Source: Halobacteriales archaeon QS_9_68_17 (GTDB lineage: Archaea > Halobacteriota > Halobacteria > Halobacteriales > Natronoarchaeaceae). From it: 64,000 nucleotides of DNA. The DNA lies in the NCBI GenBank assembly GCA_003023565.1, contig PXSA01000039.1, forward strand, positions 29,720 through 93,719, given 5' to 3'. How positions within the stretch are numbered: position 1 is the first letter of the stretch; each line of letters starts with the position of its first letter. Position numbers and translations under genes: made by a program. The notes below the pieces were generated by a model. The model was not told the DNA's origin. It saw nothing but the letters and a program-made list of their open reading frames with translations, and did not search any database. Positions 496 to 55,383 of the stretch are shown here, piece after piece.

Positions 496-1836
496 TCACT
501 GCGGGCGAGCGAGGAACTCTCCCCGCCCCGGCTCGGAACGAACGTCGTGGTCCCGGGCGATGACCTCGCCGCCGGCGATAACGGTGTCGACGCGAGCGCT
601 CCACTCCTGCCCCTCGTACGGCGTCCACCCGCCCGCGAACCGGAGGTCGTCCGCCGAGACCTCGAACCGCTCCTCGCGCACGAGCGCGATGTCGGCGTCG
701 GTCCCCACCCGCAACGATCCCTTTCGCGGGTAGATGCCGGCCTCGCGCGCCGGCCGGGCGCAGACGAGTTCGCGCAGTCGCGGCCAGGAGATCCGGTCCT
801 CGTGAACCCCCTCGCTGACGAGGAACTCCAGCGTCGTCTCGATGCCCGGGAGCCCGGCGTACGGCTCCCAGATGTCGTCCCAACCGCGCTCCCGGTCCTC
901 GCGGTACGTGGGGAAGTGCTCGCTGGCGATCAGGTCGATCGTGCCGTCCCGAACGGCGGTCCAGAGCCGGGCGACCTCCGCGGGGGACTTCAGGCTCGGG
1001 TTCACCTTCAGGAACGGCCCCTTCTCCGCCACGTCCTCCTTCGAGAACGCGAGGTAGTGCGGGCAGGTCTCCAGCGTCACCGGGACGTTCGCCCGCGACT
1101 CGAACCGCTCGCCCTCCCGCGCGCCGCTGCCGCTGGAGACGTGAACGACGTGGAGCGGGCAGTCCGCGTACTCCGCGAACCACCCCATCCGGCTAATGGC
1201 GTCGAGTTCCGCCTCCAGCGGGCGGGAGTCCATGTACACGTCCGGGTCGGTCCCCGCTATCGACGCCCGGGCGTGGTCGAGGATCCCCTGCGTCTCGCAG
1301 TGGACGCGGACCTTGCCGCCGGCGTCTCCCACCTGTTCCATCAGGGAGACGATCGTCCCGTCGTCCGCGAGATACGGTTCGGCGGTGAACGTTTTGAAGT
1401 CGGGCGTCCCCGCCGCCAGTATCCCCTCCACGTCGACGTCCGGGTCGTCCACGTTGCCCGCGACCAGCCCGAAGTCGACGTGTGCGAGGCCCTCGCAGTC
1501 CGCCCGCTTCGCTCGGAACGACTCGGGGGAGGTGATCGGTGTCTGCGTCGGGAGTTCGACGACGGTGGTCACCCCGCCCGCGGCGGCGCTCGCCGTCTCC
1601 GACGCGAAGTCGATGCCCTCGGGGAACAGTTCCGGGTCGTGCATGTGGTTGTGTACGTCGACCATGCCGGGGAGCGCGACCATCCCGTCGGCGTCTATCA
1701 GGTCGTCGGCGTCGCCGCGGTCGCTTGCCACGTCGGGGCCGACCGCCGCTATCCGGCCGTCGTCGATCGCGATCGACCCGGGCCGCACGCCGGCCGCGTC
1801 GACGATCCGGGCGTTCTCTATAAGTCGATCCGTCAT
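496..1836 (-). CDS. Dihydroorotase/allantoinase/hydantoinase-type cyclic amidohydrolase
   Basis: MTDRLIENARIVDAAGVRPGSIAIDDGRIAAVG...GMVDVHNHMHDPELFPEGIDFASETASAAAGGVTTVVELP; metal-binding HxH and C-terminal amidohydrolase motifs. Confidence 0.85.
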   Translation of the reverse strand: MTDRLIENARIVDAAGVRPGSIAIDDGRIAAVGPDVASDRGDADDLIDADGMVALPGMVDVHNHMHDPELFPEGIDFASETASAAAGGVTTVVELPTQTPITSPESFRAKRADCEGLAHVDFGLVAGNVDDPDVDVEGILAAGTPDFKTFTAEPYLADDGTIVSLMEQVGDAGGKVRVHCETQGILDHARASIAGTDPDVYMDSRPLEAELDAISRMGWFAEYADCPLHVVHVSSGSGAREGERFESRANVPVTLETCPHYLAFSKEDVAEKGPFLKVNPSLKSPAEVARLWTAVRDGTIDLIASEHFPTYREDRERGWDDIWEPYAGLPGIETTLEFLVSEGVHEDRISWPRLRELVCARPAREAGIYPRKGSLRVGTDADIALVREERFEVSADDLRFAGGWTPYEGQEWSARVDTVIAGGEVIARDHDVRSEPGRGEFLARPQ

Positions 1837-2015
1837 GGTAGGGTTCGGGACGCGGACGACCAAAACAGTTGGCGATCGCTGGGAAGGGGCCTTCTACCCG
1901 CCGGGACGTGTGGCTCCCGGTGGCCGAACGTGGCCCCGATGTGCGGCCGTTTGCCGGCGCTTCGCGGTCGTGGAGCGGAGATAGTTTTTTGACGCGTGCC
2001 ATTTTCTGCCACGGT

Positions 2016-3314
2016 GTGATACTGAACGCAGGCACGCTCGTCACCATGAACGACGAGCGCGCGGTCCGAGAGGAGGTCCACGTCGTCGTCGAGGGCGGTG
2101 AGATCGTCGAGATCGCCGACGGGTACGAGTCCGGCGAGGACGCGGTCGACGCGCGCGACGAGGTGGTGATCCCGGGGCTGGTGAACTGTCACACCCACAT
2201 GTACGCGCTCCCGATCCGCGGCGCACCGCTTACGGCGTCGCCGCGGAGTTTCTACGAGGCGCTGGTCGACATCTGGTGGGAGGTCGACGAGGCGTTCACG
2301 ACGCGCGACGCCCGTCTCTCCGCGCTCGGTTCCAGCGCCGAGATGCTGGAAAGCGGCGTCACGACGTTCTGTGACAACTACTCCGGCCCGAACACGCTCC
2401 CCGGTGCGCTGGACGCGGTCGCCGACGGCGTTTCGCGGACGCCGATCCGCGGGATGATCACGTTCGAGACGACGGCGCGGAACTCCGAGTCCGAGGCCGT
2501 GGAGGGGGTCGACGAGAACCGGCGTTTCATCCAAGAGGGGGAGGGGGAGTACGACCGCGTCAGCGGTCACTACTGCCTCCACACCCTGTTTACGAACACG
2601 GGGAGCGTCGTCGACGAGTGCGTCACCCGCGCGGTCGACGACGACCGCCTGCTCCAGATCCACCTGGAGGAGGGACTGGTCGACGTCCACGACTCCATCA
2701 GGGAGTACGGGGAGCGTCCCGTCCCGGCGCTGGAGTCGATGGGCTTTTTCGACGCGGACGTCGTCGCCGCACACTGCGTCCACTCCACCGAGCGGGAACT
2801 CGAAGTCCTCGCGGACCACGACGTGTCGGTCGCGCACAACCCCTACTCGAACATCAACAACGCGGTCGGCATCGCCGACGTCGAGACGATGGAGGACCTC
2901 GACATGACGGTCGGCATCGGGGACGACGGCTGGGACCCCGACATGTTCGAGACGATGCGGTCCGCCGTCGGCATCCACAAACTGAAGCAAAACGACCCGA
3001 GCGGGTTCGACATGGCGAAGGCTCTGGAGTGGGCCACCGTCGGCAGCGCGTCGGTGCTGGGCATGGACGACCGGGTCGGCAGCGTCGAGGTCGGCAAGCG
3101 CGGCGACTTCGTCACGCTCGATCTGGGTCCGAACCCGGTGCTTCCCGGGAGCGCGCCGTACTACATCGTCAGCGCCGCGAGCAGGGCCGACGTGACCCGG
3201 ACTATCGTCGACGGCGAGGTCGCGTACAGCCCCGATGACGGTGTACGCGGAGTGGACGGGTCGGACATGGAGGCCGTGGGCGAGGCGAGTGCGGAACTCT
3301 GGGACCGCCTCTGA
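2016..3314 (+). CDS. Amidohydrolase family protein (AtzA/TrzA/SsnA-like deaminase/chlorohydrolase)
   Basis: VILNAGTLVTMNDERAV...GLVNCHTHMYALPIRG...VVAAHCVHSTERELEVLADHDVSVAHNPYSNINNAVG...GIGDDGWDPDMFE; GTG start likely. Confidence 0.85.
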   Translation: MILNAGTLVTMNDERAVREEVHVVVEGGEIVEIADGYESGEDAVDARDEVVIPGLVNCHTHMYALPIRGAPLTASPRSFYEALVDIWWEVDEAFTTRDARLSALGSSAEMLESGVTTFCDNYSGPNTLPGALDAVADGVSRTPIRGMITFETTARNSESEAVEGVDENRRFIQEGEGEYDRVSGHYCLHTLFTNTGSVVDECVTRAVDDDRLLQIHLEEGLVDVHDSIREYGERPVPALESMGFFDADVVAAHCVHSTERELEVLADHDVSVAHNPYSNINNAVGIADVETMEDLDMTVGIGDDGWDPDMFETMRSAVGIHKLKQNDPSGFDMAKALEWATVGSASVLGMDDRVGSVEVGKRGDFVTLDLGPNPVLPGSAPYYIVSAASRADVTRTIVDGEVAYSPDDGVRGVDGSDMEAVGEASAELWDRL

Positions 3315-3560
3315 GGTCGGCCCCGGTCAGCGTCGGTTTCGCGGTCCCGGTGCGCTCCCGGCGTGGTCGCCGCGATATTTTACACACTAAGGGCGTACAT
3401 TATCGGTCGGCCCTCGATCCGCGGTTCCGGCCGGGGGACCTAACGGGCCGACTTCGTTAACCGGCGGGACCGCCCCCGGCCGGCGACGGTCCGACGGCGC
3501 GGGTCCGGGGCGTACACGCTTCGTCAAGATTTATGACCGTCGCGGGGCGAACGTGGCGTG

Positions 3561-4202
3561 ATGGCAACTGATCCCGGATGCAAAGTGGACACGGCAGTGG
3601 AGCGGTACGGGTTGGCGTCGGCGGATCCGGTGTACGAGACGATCGACGAGGGCCTGCTCAGGCGCTGGAAGGGCGACGACGACCGCTCCTCCACGGGCTA
3701 TCGGTCGCTCACGGAGTGGTTCAACAAACGGCTGCTGAAGCAGGTGTACGACGAGCACGGCCGGGAGTCGCTCGGCGCGCGCGTCGACAGCGATTACGAG
3801 GCGTTACGGAGCGGCGACGACCTGCTGAGCGAGGAGACGGTCGAGAGCCTCCGGTCCGACGGCGTCGACGCCGAGCGGGTCCGCGACGACATGGTGTCGT
3901 GGGGGACGATGCGAACGCATCTACAGGAGTGCCTCGACGGGGAGAAAGCGCCCCAGGCCGCCCGGACGGAGTGGGAACGGGAGAGCATCGAGAAGGCCCG
4001 TGAGGTGACCAGAGAGAAGGCCGCATCGGCGCTGTCCTCGCTCGCGACGAAAGGAGAGATCGATGGGGTCGATTCGGCCTCGGTCGAGGTGCGGATCCAG
4101 ATCAGTTGCGGGCACTGTCCGACGCGCGTTCCGTTCGACGTGGCGGCCGAACGGGGCTACGTCTGCGAACAGCACGGCCGAACGCACGCCACGACCGACT
4201 GA
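3561..4202 (+). CDS. rdfA: RdfA-like protein (rod-determining factor A family)
   Basis: MATDPGCKVDTAVERYGLASADPVYETIDEGLLRRWKGDDDRSSTGYRSLTEWFNKRLLKQVYDEHGRESLGARVDSDYEALRSGDD with a C-terminal CGHC...C motif; immediately upstream of an SMC-related gene. Confidence 0.75.
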   Translation: MATDPGCKVDTAVERYGLASADPVYETIDEGLLRRWKGDDDRSSTGYRSLTEWFNKRLLKQVYDEHGRESLGARVDSDYEALRSGDDLLSEETVESLRSDGVDAERVRDDMVSWGTMRTHLQECLDGEKAPQAARTEWERESIEKAREVTREKAASALSSLATKGEIDGVDSASVEVRIQISCGHCPTRVPFDVAAERGYVCEQHGRTHATTD

Positions 4203-4207
4203 CGACT

Positions 4208-6004
4208 ATGACATGGAACATCGACATCGAGAACGTCGCGGGGATACTGAGCGGGAGCGCGACGATCGAACCGGGCCTGAACGCCGTCCGGGGATCGAAC
4301 TGGCAGGGCAAATCCAGCTTCATCGAGGCCGTCAAGACGGCGCTCGGGACGTCGACCGAACTCACCGAGGGCGAGGAGCGCGGCGGGGTCACGCTCCGGA
4401 CGCCGGACCGGGAGGTCGCGGTGGATCTGGTCCGGGAGAACGGCACCGTGCGGCGGTCGGGGACGCCGTATCTCGACGAGGAGTACGACACCGTCCGGGC
4501 GGAGTTGTTCGCCTGCCTCGACGAGCGAAACGCGGTCCGCGGGGCGGTCAGACGCGGGGAGAACCTCGAAGACGTGCTGATGCGCCCGCTCGACTTCCAG
4601 AACATCGACGAGCGGGTCGCGGACCTGAAGCGCGAGCGCGAGCGGGTCTCCTCGGAGCTCTCGGGGGCCAGAGAGGCGAAGAAGCGCCTCCCCGCGGTGC
4701 AGGAACAGGTGACGCAACTCGAAAAGGAGATCGACGAACTGCGGGAGAAACGCGAGGAGGTCGCGTCCGGTGACGCCGACAGCGACCCCGACGGCAGGGA
4801 CGAGACGGCGCGACAGCAACTCAACGGGGCCCGGACGGAACGGAGTCGGGCCGAGAGCCGGGTCGACCGACTGGAGGGGACCATCGAACGGACGAAGGAT
4901 CGCCTCGAAGAGCGACGCTCGGAGCTGGAGTCGCTCGAGATCCCGGAGGACGACGTGGAGGGTGAACTCGCGGTGGCCCGGGAGGAACTCCAGCGGATCA
5001 AACAGGACGCCGAAGTGCTGCAGTCCGTCTACTCCGCGAACGAGATGGTGCTAACGGAGAACCGACTCGACCTTCTGACGGACGTCGAGCGGGAGTTGAC
5101 CGGCGACACGGTCACCTGCTGGACCTGCGGGAGCGACGCGCAGCGAGCGGACCTCGAGGAGCGTCTGGACGCCCTCGGCGACGAGATCACCGGACTCCGG
5201 GCCGAGACCGAGCAGTACCGCGACCGGGTCGAGGAACTAGAGGCGCGACGGGAAGAGATCAAGCAGGCGGAGCGGCGGCGACGGGACCTGAAAGCGGAGA
5301 TCGCGGAACTGGAGGAGACGCTCGCGGACCGGCGACAGAGCCTGTCGGACGCCGAGGACCGTTTCGAGGCGGCGGACGAACGCGTCGAAGAACTCTCGAA
5401 CGCCGTCGACGAGGCGGTCGAGGAGATATCGGACGTCGAGAGCGAGATCAAGTATCGGGAGGCCGAACTGAAGGACACGCGGGACGAACTCGCGGCACTG
5501 GAGAACCGGGCCGAACGGGTCGAGACGCTCGACGCGGAGAACGAGCGGGTCCGGACGGAGATCGAGGCGCTTCGCAGCCGCAAAGACGAGATCAAGCGCC
5601 GAACGCGGGAGGCGTTCGACGATGCAATGGCCGACGTCCTGTCGCGGTTCGATACGGGGTTCGAGACGGCCCGGCTCACCTCCGAGTTCGGTCTGGTGGT
5701 GGCCCGCGACGGCCGCGAGGCCAGCCTGGACGCCCTCAGCGAGGGGGAACTCGAACTCATCGGGTTCGTCGCGGCGCTGGCCGGCTACGAGTCGTTCGAC
5801 GTGGGCGACGCCGTTCCGCTCCTCCTCGTCGACGGCGTCGGGGGGCTGGCGGACGACAACCTCCACACGCTGATCGACTACCTCCAGGACCGGACGGAGT
5901 ATTTCGTCTTCACGGCGTACCCCGAATACACGGCGTTCGAGGGGAGGGGGATCGACCCCGATGGCTGGGAGGTCGCGACGGACAGACAGGTCACCGCGGA
6001 CTGA
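4208..6004 (+). CDS. Archaea-specific SMC-related (Rad50-like) coiled-coil ATPase with CxxC hook
   Basis: MTWNIDIENVAGILSGSATIEPGLNAVRGSNWQGKSSFIEAVKTAL (Walker A), long coiled coil, hook VTCWTCGSDA, LSEGELELIGF, VPLLLVDGVGGLADDN. ORF-track start at 4106 is 5' over-extended. Confidence 0.85.
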   Translation: MTWNIDIENVAGILSGSATIEPGLNAVRGSNWQGKSSFIEAVKTALGTSTELTEGEERGGVTLRTPDREVAVDLVRENGTVRRSGTPYLDEEYDTVRAELFACLDERNAVRGAVRRGENLEDVLMRPLDFQNIDERVADLKRERERVSSELSGAREAKKRLPAVQEQVTQLEKEIDELREKREEVASGDADSDPDGRDETARQQLNGARTERSRAESRVDRLEGTIERTKDRLEERRSELESLEIPEDDVEGELAVAREELQRIKQDAEVLQSVYSANEMVLTENRLDLLTDVERELTGDTVTCWTCGSDAQRADLEERLDALGDEITGLRAETEQYRDRVEELEARREEIKQAERRRRDLKAEIAELEETLADRRQSLSDAEDRFEAADERVEELSNAVDEAVEEISDVESEIKYREAELKDTRDELAALENRAERVETLDAENERVRTEIEALRSRKDEIKRRTREAFDDAMADVLSRFDTGFETARLTSEFGLVVARDGREASLDALSEGELELIGFVAALAGYESFDVGDAVPLLLVDGVGGLADDNLHTLIDYLQDRTEYFVFTAYPEYTAFEGRGIDPDGWEVATDRQVTAD

Positions 6005-6232
6005 GTGCCGGTCGGTCCGGCGGCGTCTGTCGGATCGTTCCCGCGTACCCGTCTTCCCGGGATTCGACCCGCATCGAGGCGTCCGCGGTCGACGACCTGT
6101 CGGCCGTCTCTCACGAGGACGGCGTGTCGGTGCGGTCCCGAGCCAGCCGGTCGATGGGAGCGCACCGGTCGTCTCCCCGAACACGCGAGGGGAAAGAACG
6201 TTGCCGATACACTAAGCCAATAGTAGGGTACT

Positions 6233-6583
6233 GTGGACGGTCAGGACGTGGTGATTAGAGTCGTCCGACGCGGAGGTCAAAACGTCGACACCGGCGAGCG
6301 GATGGTCGGCGATAACGACGAGGTCACCGCCGACCTCTCCATGACGGGCATGGAACTCAGAGACGAGGTTTCGATCGAGTCGGAGGCCTTCGACATCGAA
6401 AACGGTCGCGTCGACGTCGACCTGTCGGTGAGCGTTCCGGTCGGGGACCGGAGCCACGCCCGTCGTCTCCTCGCGGAACTGAACCTGGTCGACCTCGTGA
6501 CAAGGCGTCTCGGCGGGGACCGGATCACCGTCTCTCCGTCGGAGACACAGCGCCGGATCGACATCGACGGCTCCGCCCGTTAG
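6233..6583 (+). CDS. Hypothetical protein (116 aa) downstream of SMC-related gene
   Basis: Intact ORF MDGQDVVIRVVRRGGQNVDTGERMVGDNDEVTADLSMTGMELRDEVSIE..., co-directional with rdfA/SMC. Confidence 0.6.
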   Translation: MDGQDVVIRVVRRGGQNVDTGERMVGDNDEVTADLSMTGMELRDEVSIESEAFDIENGRVDVDLSVSVPVGDRSHARRLLAELNLVDLVTRRLGGDRITVSPSETQRRIDIDGSAR

Positions 6584-6834
6584 TCCGACAGCGCCCAGCC
6601 GACGCTCCGGCCGGATAGCTACGCCTATGGCTTCCGGCGACGGACGACGCCGACGCTTCGCTCTTCGGGACCCGTCTCGTCGCGTGACCGCCCGGCCCTC
6701 CGCCGCGTCACCGCGAGACGCGCTCTCTTCGCGCCCGGCGACCGTCCGGCCGGTCGGCGGTTACGGCCGGTCCGCGTGATGGTTCGCCGACATGAGGGGA
6801 AACGTTATTGCCATGTGTAACTATACCACGGTCA

Positions 6835-7674
6835 ATGGCAACGATCAGAGTACGGGACTGGACGAAAAAACGGATCGACGGGATACTCGAAGCGGAGTCG
6901 CACTCCTCTCACGACTCCGTGATCAAATCGCTGCTGAAAGACCGCGAACTGGCGCAGTTCGCCGGACAGGGCGTCGACGGTCGAGACGCCGCCGAGGAGT
7001 CGCCGCGACCGCCGGCGGACAGGCCCTTCGACGACCTCACGGTCCTCGACGAGATGCGGCACGCCGACAACGGCATCCTCTTTCTGTGGTGCCCGAACTG
7101 CGGTAACGAGTTGGCCCATCTCACCCTGGAGAACCCGGTCGACCTCTCGATCCTCGAGATGGAGTGTCAGCGGTGTCTCACTCACCTCGACCAGCACGCG
7201 CTCATCGCCATCGAGATCGGCTATCCGATCGAGGAGAAACTCGTCGACGACCACCTCCAGGACGACCTGAAAGCGTGTGTCATCGACTACTGGGACCGCA
7301 CCCTCGAACAGCGCACCGAGGCCGCCGCGGACGAGGAGCCAGACGTCGAGCAACTCGTCTGGCAGTTCGACCAGTACGTTCGCAACTTCCAGTGGGAGTG
7401 GCCGACCGACGTTCCCGCGGTCGGCTTCGAAGGGGGGTCGACGTACCGGAACGAGGCCACCGGCGAACTGATCGAAGCGATGGAACCGGTGACCGAGCAC
7501 CGAAACGCGCTCGACTCGTTCGAGGTCAGACGCTACCCAGAGGGCGCGGACCCCGACGACGCCGAGACCGAGACCATGGATAGCACCGCGGTCGCGGACC
7601 TGATCATCAACCGGAGCCTCTCTCTGGTCGAGGCGACGTCGCCGGACACCGCGAGTCCGCCGGACCGAGCGTAG
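6835..7674 (+). CDS. Hypothetical protein with N-terminal RHH-like segment and CPNC/CQRC zinc-ribbon-like motif
   Basis: MATIRVRDWTKKRIDGILEAESHSSHDSVIKSLLKD... then FLWCPNCGNELAHLTLENPVDLSILEMECQRC. Confidence 0.7.
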   Translation: MATIRVRDWTKKRIDGILEAESHSSHDSVIKSLLKDRELAQFAGQGVDGRDAAEESPRPPADRPFDDLTVLDEMRHADNGILFLWCPNCGNELAHLTLENPVDLSILEMECQRCLTHLDQHALIAIEIGYPIEEKLVDDHLQDDLKACVIDYWDRTLEQRTEAAADEEPDVEQLVWQFDQYVRNFQWEWPTDVPAVGFEGGSTYRNEATGELIEAMEPVTEHRNALDSFEVRRYPEGADPDDAETETMDSTAVADLIINRSLSLVEATSPDTASPPDRA

Positions 7675-36743: not shown

Positions 36744-37409
36744 TCAGTCCACGTACTCGTAGCCCCACTCCGACAGCGTCTCGGCGATGGCCTCGGCGTC
36801 GGCGGTTGCGACCATCGCTTCGCGGACGTCGAGTTTCTTCAGTCGCTTCTCGCGGACGTCGAGTTCCTCGGCGACGGCGGCGATGATGTCGTCTTCAGTC
36901 TTCGAGTACTCGTCGCGCAGGAAAAACTGGTGGACGTTGTCCCTGTCTTCCTTGACGCGGGACCGTCGAAGCACCCACGGGATGTCGCGTGACTCCGCGT
37001 CGTTCTCCCCCTCCCCGCTCGCCGTCGCGCTATCGTCTCGACCCGACCCCCGGCCCGCTTCAGCCGTCGGTCGCTCGTCGGACCGCGGACTCTCCGCTCC
37101 CGTCGACTCGGTCCCGGACGACTCCGCACCGCCCGACTCTGTTCTCGCGGTCTCGTCGGTTGAAGCGTCGTCGCTGCTTGGACGTCGCTCGTCTTCCACC
37201 GCGTCCTCGGCCACCACGCCTGCGCTCCTCTCAGGTCCCGGTCGGTCGGGCTCCGCCGTCGTTCCCGCTGCTTCGGTCCCGGATCCGGAGACCGCAGAGG
37301 CCTCGCTCCCTTCGGCGGACGCCGCGTCGTCCGTCTCCTCGCTCGACCCCTCGTCCGCTTCGTCGAACGGGTCGTCCGCGAACGGGTCGTCGCCCGCGCC
37401 GGACTTCAT
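36744..37409 (-). CDS. Acidic partition-associated protein coupled to parA
   Basis: ATGA overlap with parA stop; low-complexity D/E/S/T N-terminus, then conserved-looking IPWVLRRSRVKEDRDNVHQFFLRDEYSKTEDDIIAAVAEELDVREKRLKKLDVREAMVATADAEAIAETLSEWGYEYVD. Confidence 0.7.
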   Translation of the reverse strand: MKSGAGDDPFADDPFDEADEGSSEETDDAASAEGSEASAVSGSGTEAAGTTAEPDRPGPERSAGVVAEDAVEDERRPSSDDASTDETARTESGGAESSGTESTGAESPRSDERPTAEAGRGSGRDDSATASGEGENDAESRDIPWVLRRSRVKEDRDNVHQFFLRDEYSKTEDDIIAAVAEELDVREKRLKKLDVREAMVATADAEAIAETLSEWGYEYVD

Positions 37410-38254
37410 TCGAACTCACCCTCTATCTCGGCCGCGAGGTCGTCGTATTTGCCGAGCGTCTCCAGTTCGTACTCCCCGTTCGGCTCTCGCTCGTCCTCCA
37501 GCACTCCGTAGGCGGAGGTTCGGTAGTCCCACATGTTCTGCATGAGGCTGGCCCGCTCCTTGAACACCACCGGCATGTGGAACTCGGAGGACTCCAGTTC
37601 TTCGAGTCGGGCCTGCTGCGTGTTCGTTCGCTTGAACCCGACCGGCACGACGCCGAGGACGCCCACCCGGATCCCGACCTCGCTCTCCAGTCCCGACACC
37701 AGGTCGTCGAGTCCGCGGATGCTGAGAGCCCCTTTCCCCGAGAGCTCGACCGGCAGGAGGACCGACCGCGTCGCGAAGATGGCGTTGTTCAGCGCGTCGC
37801 CGGGCGTCGCCTGCGGGTCGCAGACGATCACGTCGTAATCGTCGGGAACGTCGTTCTCCTTCAGCACCCGGAGGAGCTGCTCGTGTTTCGGCCACTCGAA
37901 GTCGCCCTCCGGATGCATGTCTTCCTCTATCTCGGCGGCCTTCATCAGGTTCCGCGTCAGGTTTTCGAGCATGTTGTGACTCGGTATCACGTCGACCCCG
38001 TTCTCCTCCGTCTCGCGGACCAGGTCGCGGAAGTCGCCTTTCGGCCGCCCGATGAGGTGCCGCACGATGTTGTCCGCCGTGCCGTCGGAGCGCTCGTCGT
38101 CCACGTCGAACAGGTAGCTCAGGCTCCCCTCCTGCGGGTCGAGGTCGATGCAGAGCACGTCGTGACCGTTCCGCGCGTGCGAGACCGCGAGGTTCGCCGC
38201 GGTCGTCGTCTTGCCGACCCCGCCCGCCTCGGAGTACGTCGTGTACGTCATCAT
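37406..38254 (-). CDS. parA: ParA family partition ATPase
   Basis: MTYTTYSEAGGVGKTTTAANLAVSHARNGHDVLCIDLDPQEGSLSYLF...YDVIVCDPQATPGDALNNAIFATRSVLLPVELSGKGALSIRGL. Confidence 0.9.
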   Translation of the reverse strand: MMTYTTYSEAGGVGKTTTAANLAVSHARNGHDVLCIDLDPQEGSLSYLFDVDDERSDGTADNIVRHLIGRPKGDFRDLVRETEENGVDVIPSHNMLENLTRNLMKAAEIEEDMHPEGDFEWPKHEQLLRVLKENDVPDDYDVIVCDPQATPGDALNNAIFATRSVLLPVELSGKGALSIRGLDDLVSGLESEVGIRVGVLGVVPVGFKRTNTQQARLEELESSEFHMPVVFKERASLMQNMWDYRTSAYGVLEDEREPNGEYELETLGKYDDLAAEIEGEFE

Positions 38255-53439: not shown

Positions 53440-55383
53440 ATGAAACCGGCTACACTCTCCGTCGAGAACATCGGCGGCATCGAGTCCGCGGAAGCGGAAC
53501 TGCCGCCGGGGGTAACGGTCCTCGCCGGGCCGAACGCCTCGAACAAGACGTCGTTCCTGCAGGCCGTGATGGCCGGACTCGGGAGCGACCAGGTCTCCCT
53601 GAAAGGAGACGCGGAGGAGGGCCGCGTCGAACTGGGCCTTCATGAGGAGACGTACGGACGCTCGTTCACTCGGACGGGCGCGGGCGTCTCGTCTTCCGGG
53701 GACCGCTACCTCGACGATCCGGAACTCGCCGATCTGTTCGCCTTTCTGCTGAAGTCGAACGAGGCCCGCCGGGCGGTCGAGGCCGGCGCGGACCTCCGCG
53801 AACTCATCATGCGTCCGGTCGATACGAACGCGATCCAGGACGAGATCGAACGACTGCAGGAGGAGAAGTCCGGACTCAACGACGAACTGTCCGAGTTGCA
53901 GTCGTTGAAACAGCGCCTCCCCGACCTCGAAGGGCGCCAGCAGTCCGTCGAGGACGACATCGAAGCGACCCGCGAAGCACTCGAAACCGTCGAGGAGGAA
54001 CTCGACGACGTGGACGCGTCCGTCGAGGACCGCCGCGAGGACAAGAACGAACTCGAAGAGAAACTGTCCGAACTGAGCGAGGTGCGCTCCGAGTTAGAGG
54101 ACGTACGCTACGACATCGAGACGAAGCGCGAGAGCCGTGACTCCCTGCAGGAGGAGCGACGCGAACTCGAAGAGCGCGAGGCGGAACTCGAAGCCGTCCC
54201 CGAGACCGAACTGGAGACGCTGGAGGAACACATCGACGACCTGCGACGACAGAAGCAGTCACTCGACGCCGAGATCAGCGAACTGCAGAACACGATCCGC
54301 TTCAACGAGAAGATGATCGACGACGCCCGAGAGGGGACGCATCCAGCGATACCGACCGCCACCGACGGCGGCCAGTCGGGCGCGGTCACCGACCAACTGC
54401 TCGGGGGAAATCAGGAAACCGTCTGCTGGACCTGTGGCTCCGAGGTCGACATCGACCGGATCGAGGACACCCTCGAGAACCTCCGGCACCTGCGTCGGCA
54501 GAAACTCGACGACAAGGACGACCTCGAAACCGAACTCGACGAGTACAAGGAGCGCAAGCGCGAGTACGAGCGCCAGCGGACAAACGCCGAGCAGGTCACC
54601 CAGCGGATCGCCCGGACGGAGACGGAGATCGAGACGACCGAGAGCGCGCTCGGTCGGCTCACGGACCGGCGGGACGAGTTGATGACGGAAGTCGAGCGTC
54701 TGGAGGCCGAAGTCGAGGAACTGGAGTCGGAGACGTACGAGGAGGTGCTCGACCTCCACCGGAACGCGAACGAACTGGAGTACGAACTCGGTAAACTCGA
54801 GAGCGAGCGCGACGACCTCGGGGACGAGATCGAGGAGGTCGAGGCGGAGATCGAGCGCGAGGACGAGGTCGAGTCCCGCCGCGAGGCGATCCAGGACGAA
54901 CTGGTCGACCTCAGGACGAAGATCGACCGGATCGAGGCGGACGCCGTCGAAGAGTTCAACGAGCACATGGACGAGGTGCTGACGATCCTCGACTACGAGA
55001 ACATCGAGCGCATCTGGATCGAGATCGTCGAGACGGAGGTCCGCGAGGGCCGGCGGAAGGTACAGCGGAACGCGTTCGAACTCCACGTCGTCCGCAGTAG
55101 CGACGGCGGGGTCGCCTACGAGGACACCGTCGACCACCTGAGCGAGAGCGAGCGCGAGGTCACCGGACTGGTGTTCGCGCTGGCGGGCTATCTGGTCCAC
55201 GACCTGTACGAGCAGGTGCCGTTTATGATCGTGGACGCGCTGGAGCCGATAGACTCCGACCGCATCGCCGCGCTGGTGGAGTACTTCGAGTCCTACGTCG
55301 ACTACCTCGTGGTCGCCCTCCTGCAGGAGGACGCCGAGGCGCTGGAGGTCGACCACCACACCGTCTCCGAGACCGGCGCGTGA
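53440..55383 (+). CDS. Archaea-specific SMC-related protein (orphan paralog)
   Basis: MKPATLSVENIGGIESAEAELPPGVTVLAGPNASNKTSFLQAVMAGLGSDQ; long coiled coil; hook TVCWTCGSEVD; LSESEREVTGLVFALAGY; VPFMIVDALEPIDSDR. Confidence 0.85.
   Translation: MKPATLSVENIGGIESAEAELPPGVTVLAGPNASNKTSFLQAVMAGLGSDQVSLKGDAEEGRVELGLHEETYGRSFTRTGAGVSSSGDRYLDDPELADLFAFLLKSNEARRAVEAGADLRELIMRPVDTNAIQDEIERLQEEKSGLNDELSELQSLKQRLPDLEGRQQSVEDDIEATREALETVEEELDDVDASVEDRREDKNELEEKLSELSEVRSELEDVRYDIETKRESRDSLQEERRELEEREAELEAVPETELETLEEHIDDLRRQKQSLDAEISELQNTIRFNEKMIDDAREGTHPAIPTATDGGQSGAVTDQLLGGNQETVCWTCGSEVDIDRIEDTLENLRHLRRQKLDDKDDLETELDEYKERKREYERQRTNAEQVTQRIARTETEIETTESALGRLTDRRDELMTEVERLEAEVEELESETYEEVLDLHRNANELEYELGKLESERDDLGDEIEEVEAEIEREDEVESRREAIQDELVDLRTKIDRIEADAVEEFNEHMDEVLTILDYENIERIWIEIVETEVREGRRKVQRNAFELHVVRSSDGGVAYEDTVDHLSESEREVTGLVFALAGYLVHDLYEQVPFMIVDALEPIDSDRIAALVEYFESYVDYLVVALLQEDAEALEVDHHTVSETGA

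Follow-up and report, generated by a model that had tools for sequence, protein, structure and literature searches.

In Haloferax volcanii, RdfA and the SMC-related protein Sph3 are encoded by adjacent, co-directional genes (HVO_2174-HVO_2175), and both the adjacency of the pair (78-84%) and its rod-shape phenotypes have been published (PMC10869688). Sph3 belongs to the archaea-specific SMC-related proteins (ASRPs), a family that also includes the zinc-hook protein coalescin (ClsN), which has a role in DNA architecture and organises those domains of Sulfolobus that are poorly transcribed (PMC9389158, PMC9764264); roles of Sph proteins in gene conversion have also been described (PMC11276520). 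In the cited literature the phenotypes attached to RdfA and Sph/ASRP proteins concern cell shape, gene conversion and chromosome architecture, and the mechanism behind them is not settled. Here we describe a four-gene module, rdfA-asrp-hth-rhh, at the left end of a 64,000-nucleotide stretch (the window) of contig PXSA01000039.1 from Halobacteriales archaeon QS_9_68_17. The module shows common descent and synteny, constant linkage to a neighbouring metabolic cluster, and module-specific palindromic sites that in several genomes include a copy at the far end of that cluster. We judge the chances to be about even that it is dedicated to the adjacent molybdenum-hydroxylase/purine-catabolism cluster, usually of the selenium-dependent molybdenum hydroxylase (SDMH) type, as an autoregulated, SMC-like regulatory or architectural unit; it is probably the private control or DNA-folding device of the cluster, and not a set of general cell-shape or defence genes.

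The original prediction, made from the letters of this DNA, placed four co-directional open reading frames here, the first two separated by a few nucleotides, and this holds: rdfA stops at 4202 and asrp starts with the ATG at 4208. The first gene (3561..4202, + strand) encodes a 213-residue protein with a C-terminal CxxC...CxxH motif that is indeed an RdfA, as it is recognised by Pfam PF21811 at 7.7e-44 and scores 150 bits against a gathering score of 27. The second (4208..6004, + strand) encodes a 598-residue ATPase that had been called Rad50-like with a CWTCGS hook. The hook is present as CWTCG; however, the protein scores 468 bits against the ASRP model NF045487 (curated cut-off 300) and below 50 bits against Rad50 models, and is an ASRP, not a Rad50. 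Motif alignment recovers the order typical of ASRPs, with Walker A (GSNWQGKSS), coiled coil, zinc hook (CWTC), signature (LSEGE) and Walker B (LLLVDG), and Walker A and the zinc hook are intact in the module ASRPs. The window copies of rdfA, asrp and rhh have dN/dS values of ~0.15-0.27, indicating purifying selection.

A combined function of RdfA with the SMC-like partner and the two downstream frames had been thought undescribed; the partnership of rdfA with an SMC-like gene is itself the published Haloferax arrangement of the same two families. It might be supposed, then, that the window pair is a cell-shape pair like RdfA-Sph3, beside its present neighbours by chance, and a link to cell shape through Haloferax RdfA had been drawn. 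This is improbable. Module RdfA proteins form a separate subfamily, resolved from canonical RdfA with support of 100/100 in a tree that took the top-scoring matches to the Pfam model as controls and did not include sister clades, so that the window pair lies outside the shape clade; the ASRP tree gives the same split at 82/89, with some control rows that are not ASRPs. In canonical haloarchaeal ASRPs (L123-L142) Walker A reads GRNATNRTS, without the usual GK; an intact NWQGKSS is found in the ASRPs of the module and of the sister subfamily. Furthermore, the 20 canonical loci that we examined have no HTH or RHH partners, palindromes or purine cluster, and the neighbours of the module pair are not random.

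Presence and absence were surveyed in 300 Halobacteria genomes, 26 of which have the full-length rhh gene. RdfA of the module type (at least 290 bits against its own profile) is found in these same 26 and elsewhere only in G095 and G080; the module-level RdfA gene of G080 adjoins mocA, a MoeA-like gene and a deaminase gene. All four genes are adjacent in Halostella, Haloterrigena, Natrinema, Haladaptatus (with hth inverted), Actinarchaeum, G075 and Haloarcula salina. In other Haloarcula a stretch of ~40 kb is bounded by rdfA-asrp-rhh on one side and by hth-rhh on the other; G086 and G178 have rdfA-asrp-hth side by side and rhh ~19-27 kb away, and in G052 rdfA-asrp is accompanied by a convergent rhh, with no hth detected. 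The grouping, recurring in the same order in several genera and rearranged in others, is not random. The suggestion that the genes belong together is thus borne out, and conservation extends beyond the rdfA-SMC pair, to which the original prediction had allowed that it might be confined.

The constant neighbour of the module is the molybdenum-hydroxylase/purine-catabolism cluster, which the original prediction missed because most of it lies to the left of the window. There, on the same contig, are two sets of iron-sulfur (FeS) and XdhA-type subunits together with YqeB, SelD and YqeC, the combination that defines an SDMH cluster. Within the window the cluster is represented by an SsnA-like amidohydrolase gene (2016..3314, + strand; open from 1869, with the start set by 432-residue homologues; TIGR03314 SsnA 3.6e-74, below cut-off), which holds the same position beside the module in other genera, and by a divergent allantoinase/dihydroorotase-like amidohydrolase gene (496..1863, - strand; NF004839 allantoinase 4.9e-85, below cut-off), also in a conserved arrangement. 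Annotated examples of cluster plus module are found on pNG700 of Haloarcula marismortui, pHTUR01 of Haloterrigena turkmenica and pHH400, and in Haladaptatus halobius, Natrinema halophilum and Natrinema sp. DC36. The pNG700 SDMH cluster is already in the literature (PMC2276186, PMC2432076) and is the same cluster, flanked there by the module; the available portions of those papers do not name rdfA, asrp, hth or rhh as parts of the system, and a search of open-licence papers joining rod-determining factor with xanthine retrieved none.

The linkage between module and cluster is strong. yqeB is above cut-off in 23 of the 300 genomes, every one of which has the rhh gene (hypergeometric 1.7e-31, phylogeny ignored), and the presence and absence of the two genes agree inside six genera. 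The three rhh-bearing genomes without yqeB (G075, G086 and G178) still have hydroxylase subunit or mocA genes adjoining the module. Genes for hydroxylase, yqeB, selD, ssnA or mocA were found at none of 20 canonical RdfA loci and at 1 of 20 loci of the sister subfamily. Such linkage could also arise by hitch-hiking, if the module had an unrelated function and travelled with a purine/SDMH island that spreads as a block between megaplasmids. The module does lie mostly on secondary replicons (the G075 copy is on a 3.3-Mb contig) and its distribution is patchy within genera. We nevertheless consider this explanation unlikely, although it is the most serious of the alternatives: the link persists where the island has been reshuffled, as in Haloarcula with rdfA-asrp at the other end; the module still adjoins hydroxylase genes in G086 and G178 without yqeB; palindromic sites stand at both ends of the cluster; and in G136 and G285 (L103, L102) the HTH gene alone adjoins hydroxylase genes. 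The last two loci, with an HTH homologue next to FeS and molybdenum subunit genes, have neither rdfA nor rhh, nor the palindrome described below.

Upstream of module rdfA genes lies a 21-bp palindrome with the consensus TTAACAGACTnAGTCTGTTAA, a previously undescribed, module-specific site. It is present in 27 of 27 module promoters, of which 16 were used in building the matrix and the others include close relatives or the same locus again, and in none of 37 canonical or sister rdfA promoters, which rules it out as a general RdfA site. The window copy, TTTACACACTAAGGGCGTACA (3379..3399), lies 182 bp before the rdfA start, scores 24.5 bits and is the only site of at least 11 bits within the 64 kb; a degenerate copy, CTAACGGGCCGACTTCGTTAA (3440..3460, 9.2 bits), 121 bp before rdfA, occupies the position of the second site of the congeners, the three other Halostella genomes. 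The palindrome is paired, with 52-67 bp between copies, in Halostella, Haloterrigena, Natrinema and Haladaptatus and single elsewhere, ~95-225 bp upstream of the start codon.

A whole-genome search with the pattern, allowing one mismatch, finds exactly three places in each of G001, G003, G190, G202 and G264 and one in G192, and none in the module-less genomes G004, G201, G207 and G012; the sites of G002, G128, G163 and the window genome (G000) are too divergent for this pattern. The rdfA pair accounts for two of these places. The remaining one is 40-43 kb away (~44.5 kb in G001 if the replicon is circular) and precedes a gene for 5'-deoxyadenosine deaminase at the opposite end of the purine cluster, an arrangement shared by Natrinema sp. 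DC36; on pNG700 a pair precedes hth and a single site precedes rdfA, 38 kb apart. The window locus has one good and one degenerate site, and a far-end site would fall off the contig of this incomplete assembly (2.88 Mb in 42 contigs, 89% complete), which groups in one genus with Halostella pelagica DL-M4.

Since the palindromes lie only before rdfA (or hth) and the deaminase gene, the RHH and HTH proteins might simply regulate rdfA and the deaminase gene as ordinary transcription factors, with RdfA-ASRP having no architectural role. We regard this as slightly less probable than hitch-hiking, because it leaves the constant presence of RdfA and an SMC-like ATPase unexplained. The sites lie upstream of a TATA-like element just before rdfA, a position that would suit activation or anchoring more than simple blocking.

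A model in which the module serves the cluster can be outlined as follows. A sequence-specific module protein, most likely the RHH-like protein and possibly RdfA, would bind the palindromes, control its own operon and recruit an RdfA-ASRP complex, which would hold or compact the ~40-kb cluster through nucleotide-dependent DNA bridging so that it could be switched as one block, with the HTH protein acting as a cluster-specific transcription factor. The RHH-like protein is the favoured candidate by analogy, because SegB, in the SegAB system of Sulfolobales, uses an RHH domain to recognise a pair of imperfect palindromes that precede its own cassette (PMC12284271), a likeness of arrangement. RdfA stays a possible binder because G080, which has no rhh gene, carries a strong palindrome (28.8 bits, L160:5372-5392) 3.6 kb upstream of its rdfA-asrp pair. 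The HTH protein is disfavoured as the binder; G052 has the site without a detected hth, and G136 and G285 have the HTH gene without a nearby site. Bridging or compaction is the most likely job of RdfA-ASRP here by comparison with coalescin, because that ASRP organises poorly transcribed Sulfolobus domains; ClsN, however, acts genome-wide, is not tied to one cluster and has no RdfA, HTH or RHH partner described in the cited papers. More tentatively, and with a probability that we would put well below that of dedication itself, module proteins bound at both ends of the ~40-kb purine/selenium cluster could be joined by RdfA-ASRP, insulating or silencing the pathway genes as a single loop. If true, this would give archaea a pathway-specific equivalent of anchored SMC loops.

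Several observations weigh against dedication of the module to its cluster, or against parts of the model. Module ASRPs have Gly or Ser (Gly in the window copy) after the Walker B Asp, where a catalytic Glu is usual, and for this reason may hydrolyse nucleotide slowly or not at all. In the 49 kb examined in each of Haladaptatus, N. halophilum and Natronococcus the palindrome pair is the only occurrence, and no palindrome is found at the hydroxylase operons themselves. Support for the RHH assignment at the profile level is weak, and the whole island could be movable as a block. Even so, the module subfamily brings together one catabolic cluster, two partners that probably bind DNA and a defined site of 21 bp that occurs about three times per genome. 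With known sites, a known cluster and a simple purine growth phenotype it is a small system that would allow a direct test of what an RdfA-SMC-like pair does.

The resemblance to SegAB, with an RHH-like protein, palindromes upstream of the operon and a frequent plasmid location, would also fit a module for megaplasmid partition or maintenance. We think this very improbable: SegA is a ParA-type ATPase whereas that of the module is SMC-like, there is no ParA/SegA-type ATPase among the four conserved genes, the G075 copy is on its large contig, and the module tracks the hydroxylase cluster within genera. Equally remote in our view is anti-plasmid or anti-virus defence of the Wadjet or Lamassu kind. 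The ASRP does resemble LmuB (1.9e-17), but the matched stretch (134-445) is mostly coiled coil, the metabolic context is constant, and no nuclease or effector accompanies it: PADLOC finds no JetD or LmuA partner and no match for the RdfA, HTH or RHH proteins, the ASRP being matched mostly through its coiled coil. A search of PHROGs gave no matches. Of the two roles proposed in the original prediction, nucleoid organisation or defence, a DNA-linked role is plausible while no defence system is indicated.

The third reading frame (6233..6583, + strand) had been taken for a 116-residue protein of unknown fold, and its standing as an independent small protein is rejected. In the three Halostella congeners the same slot, in the same gene order, holds an intact protein of 309-373 residues, in which an N-terminal part is followed by an HTH block that hardly varies (AYKDPDALxAVYExYDTFPEMTEALGVDVTSETVRRYMVEYDIHDP), then by a variable linker and finally by another HTH-like part. 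Some of 12 full-length homologues match HTH_50 (4e-5) and Sigma70_r4 (5e-5), and there is one weak PDB sequence match (8vd6, 4e-4). The window gene is an internally deleted remnant of this two-HTH gene, its homologous start probably being the GTG at 6248. Close to the start, 41 bp are missing between TTAG repeats, and a deletion of 1 bp brings the gene back into frame; a further 15 bp have gone in frame, as has a stretch of ~0.7 kb that spans the HTH block and whose loss keeps the frame. Missing from the product are the N-terminus, the near-invariant central HTH and half of the C-terminal HTH. In the Halostella of the window deletions have thus shortened hth, while rdfA, asrp and rhh stay under purifying selection. 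The remnant has a dN/dS of 0.47-0.56, little higher than the 0.37-0.54 of intact homologues, so that the truncation may have happened recently or what is left of the gene may still be of importance.

The fourth gene (6835..7674, + strand) is intact and encodes a 279-residue protein with 75-82% identity to its congener counterparts. The two Cys pairs noted in the original prediction, CPNC and CQRC, are kept in 13 of 13 aligned homologues, and its RHH-like start reads MATIRVRDW. For this start a low-confidence model predicts strand-helix-helix (E4-9, H11-20, H26-35), and VAPB_antitox is matched at 1.8e-4, below cut-off, by stand-alone relatives of this N-terminus. These are proteins of 42-46 residues (L052-L054, position 1501) that weakly resemble VapB antitoxins. 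The structure model is confident in the C-terminal domain alone (about 90), and a PDB fold search returned no match with E <0.2. Neither this protein nor RdfA has a match in PDB sequence searches, and the RdfA model (pLDDT 52) was not interpreted.

Elsewhere in the window, a second ASRP (53440-55383; 671 bits) is of the canonical type and sits among catabolic genes, with no RdfA partner found in the incomplete genome. Far from the module lies a ParA-like gene (37406-38254), accompanied downstream by a small partner gene (together 36744-38254). In the sister RdfA-ASRP subfamily (L143-L162) a conserved ~298-residue protein is encoded nearby in 8 of 20 loci. Finally, proteins of ~50-65 residues annotated as ribosomal protein S17e adjoin module or deaminase genes in several genera (L163:8438-9747, L168:8103-10840, L169:8494-10856, L170:1246-2231 and L121:8433-8630) and may be further small components of the module.

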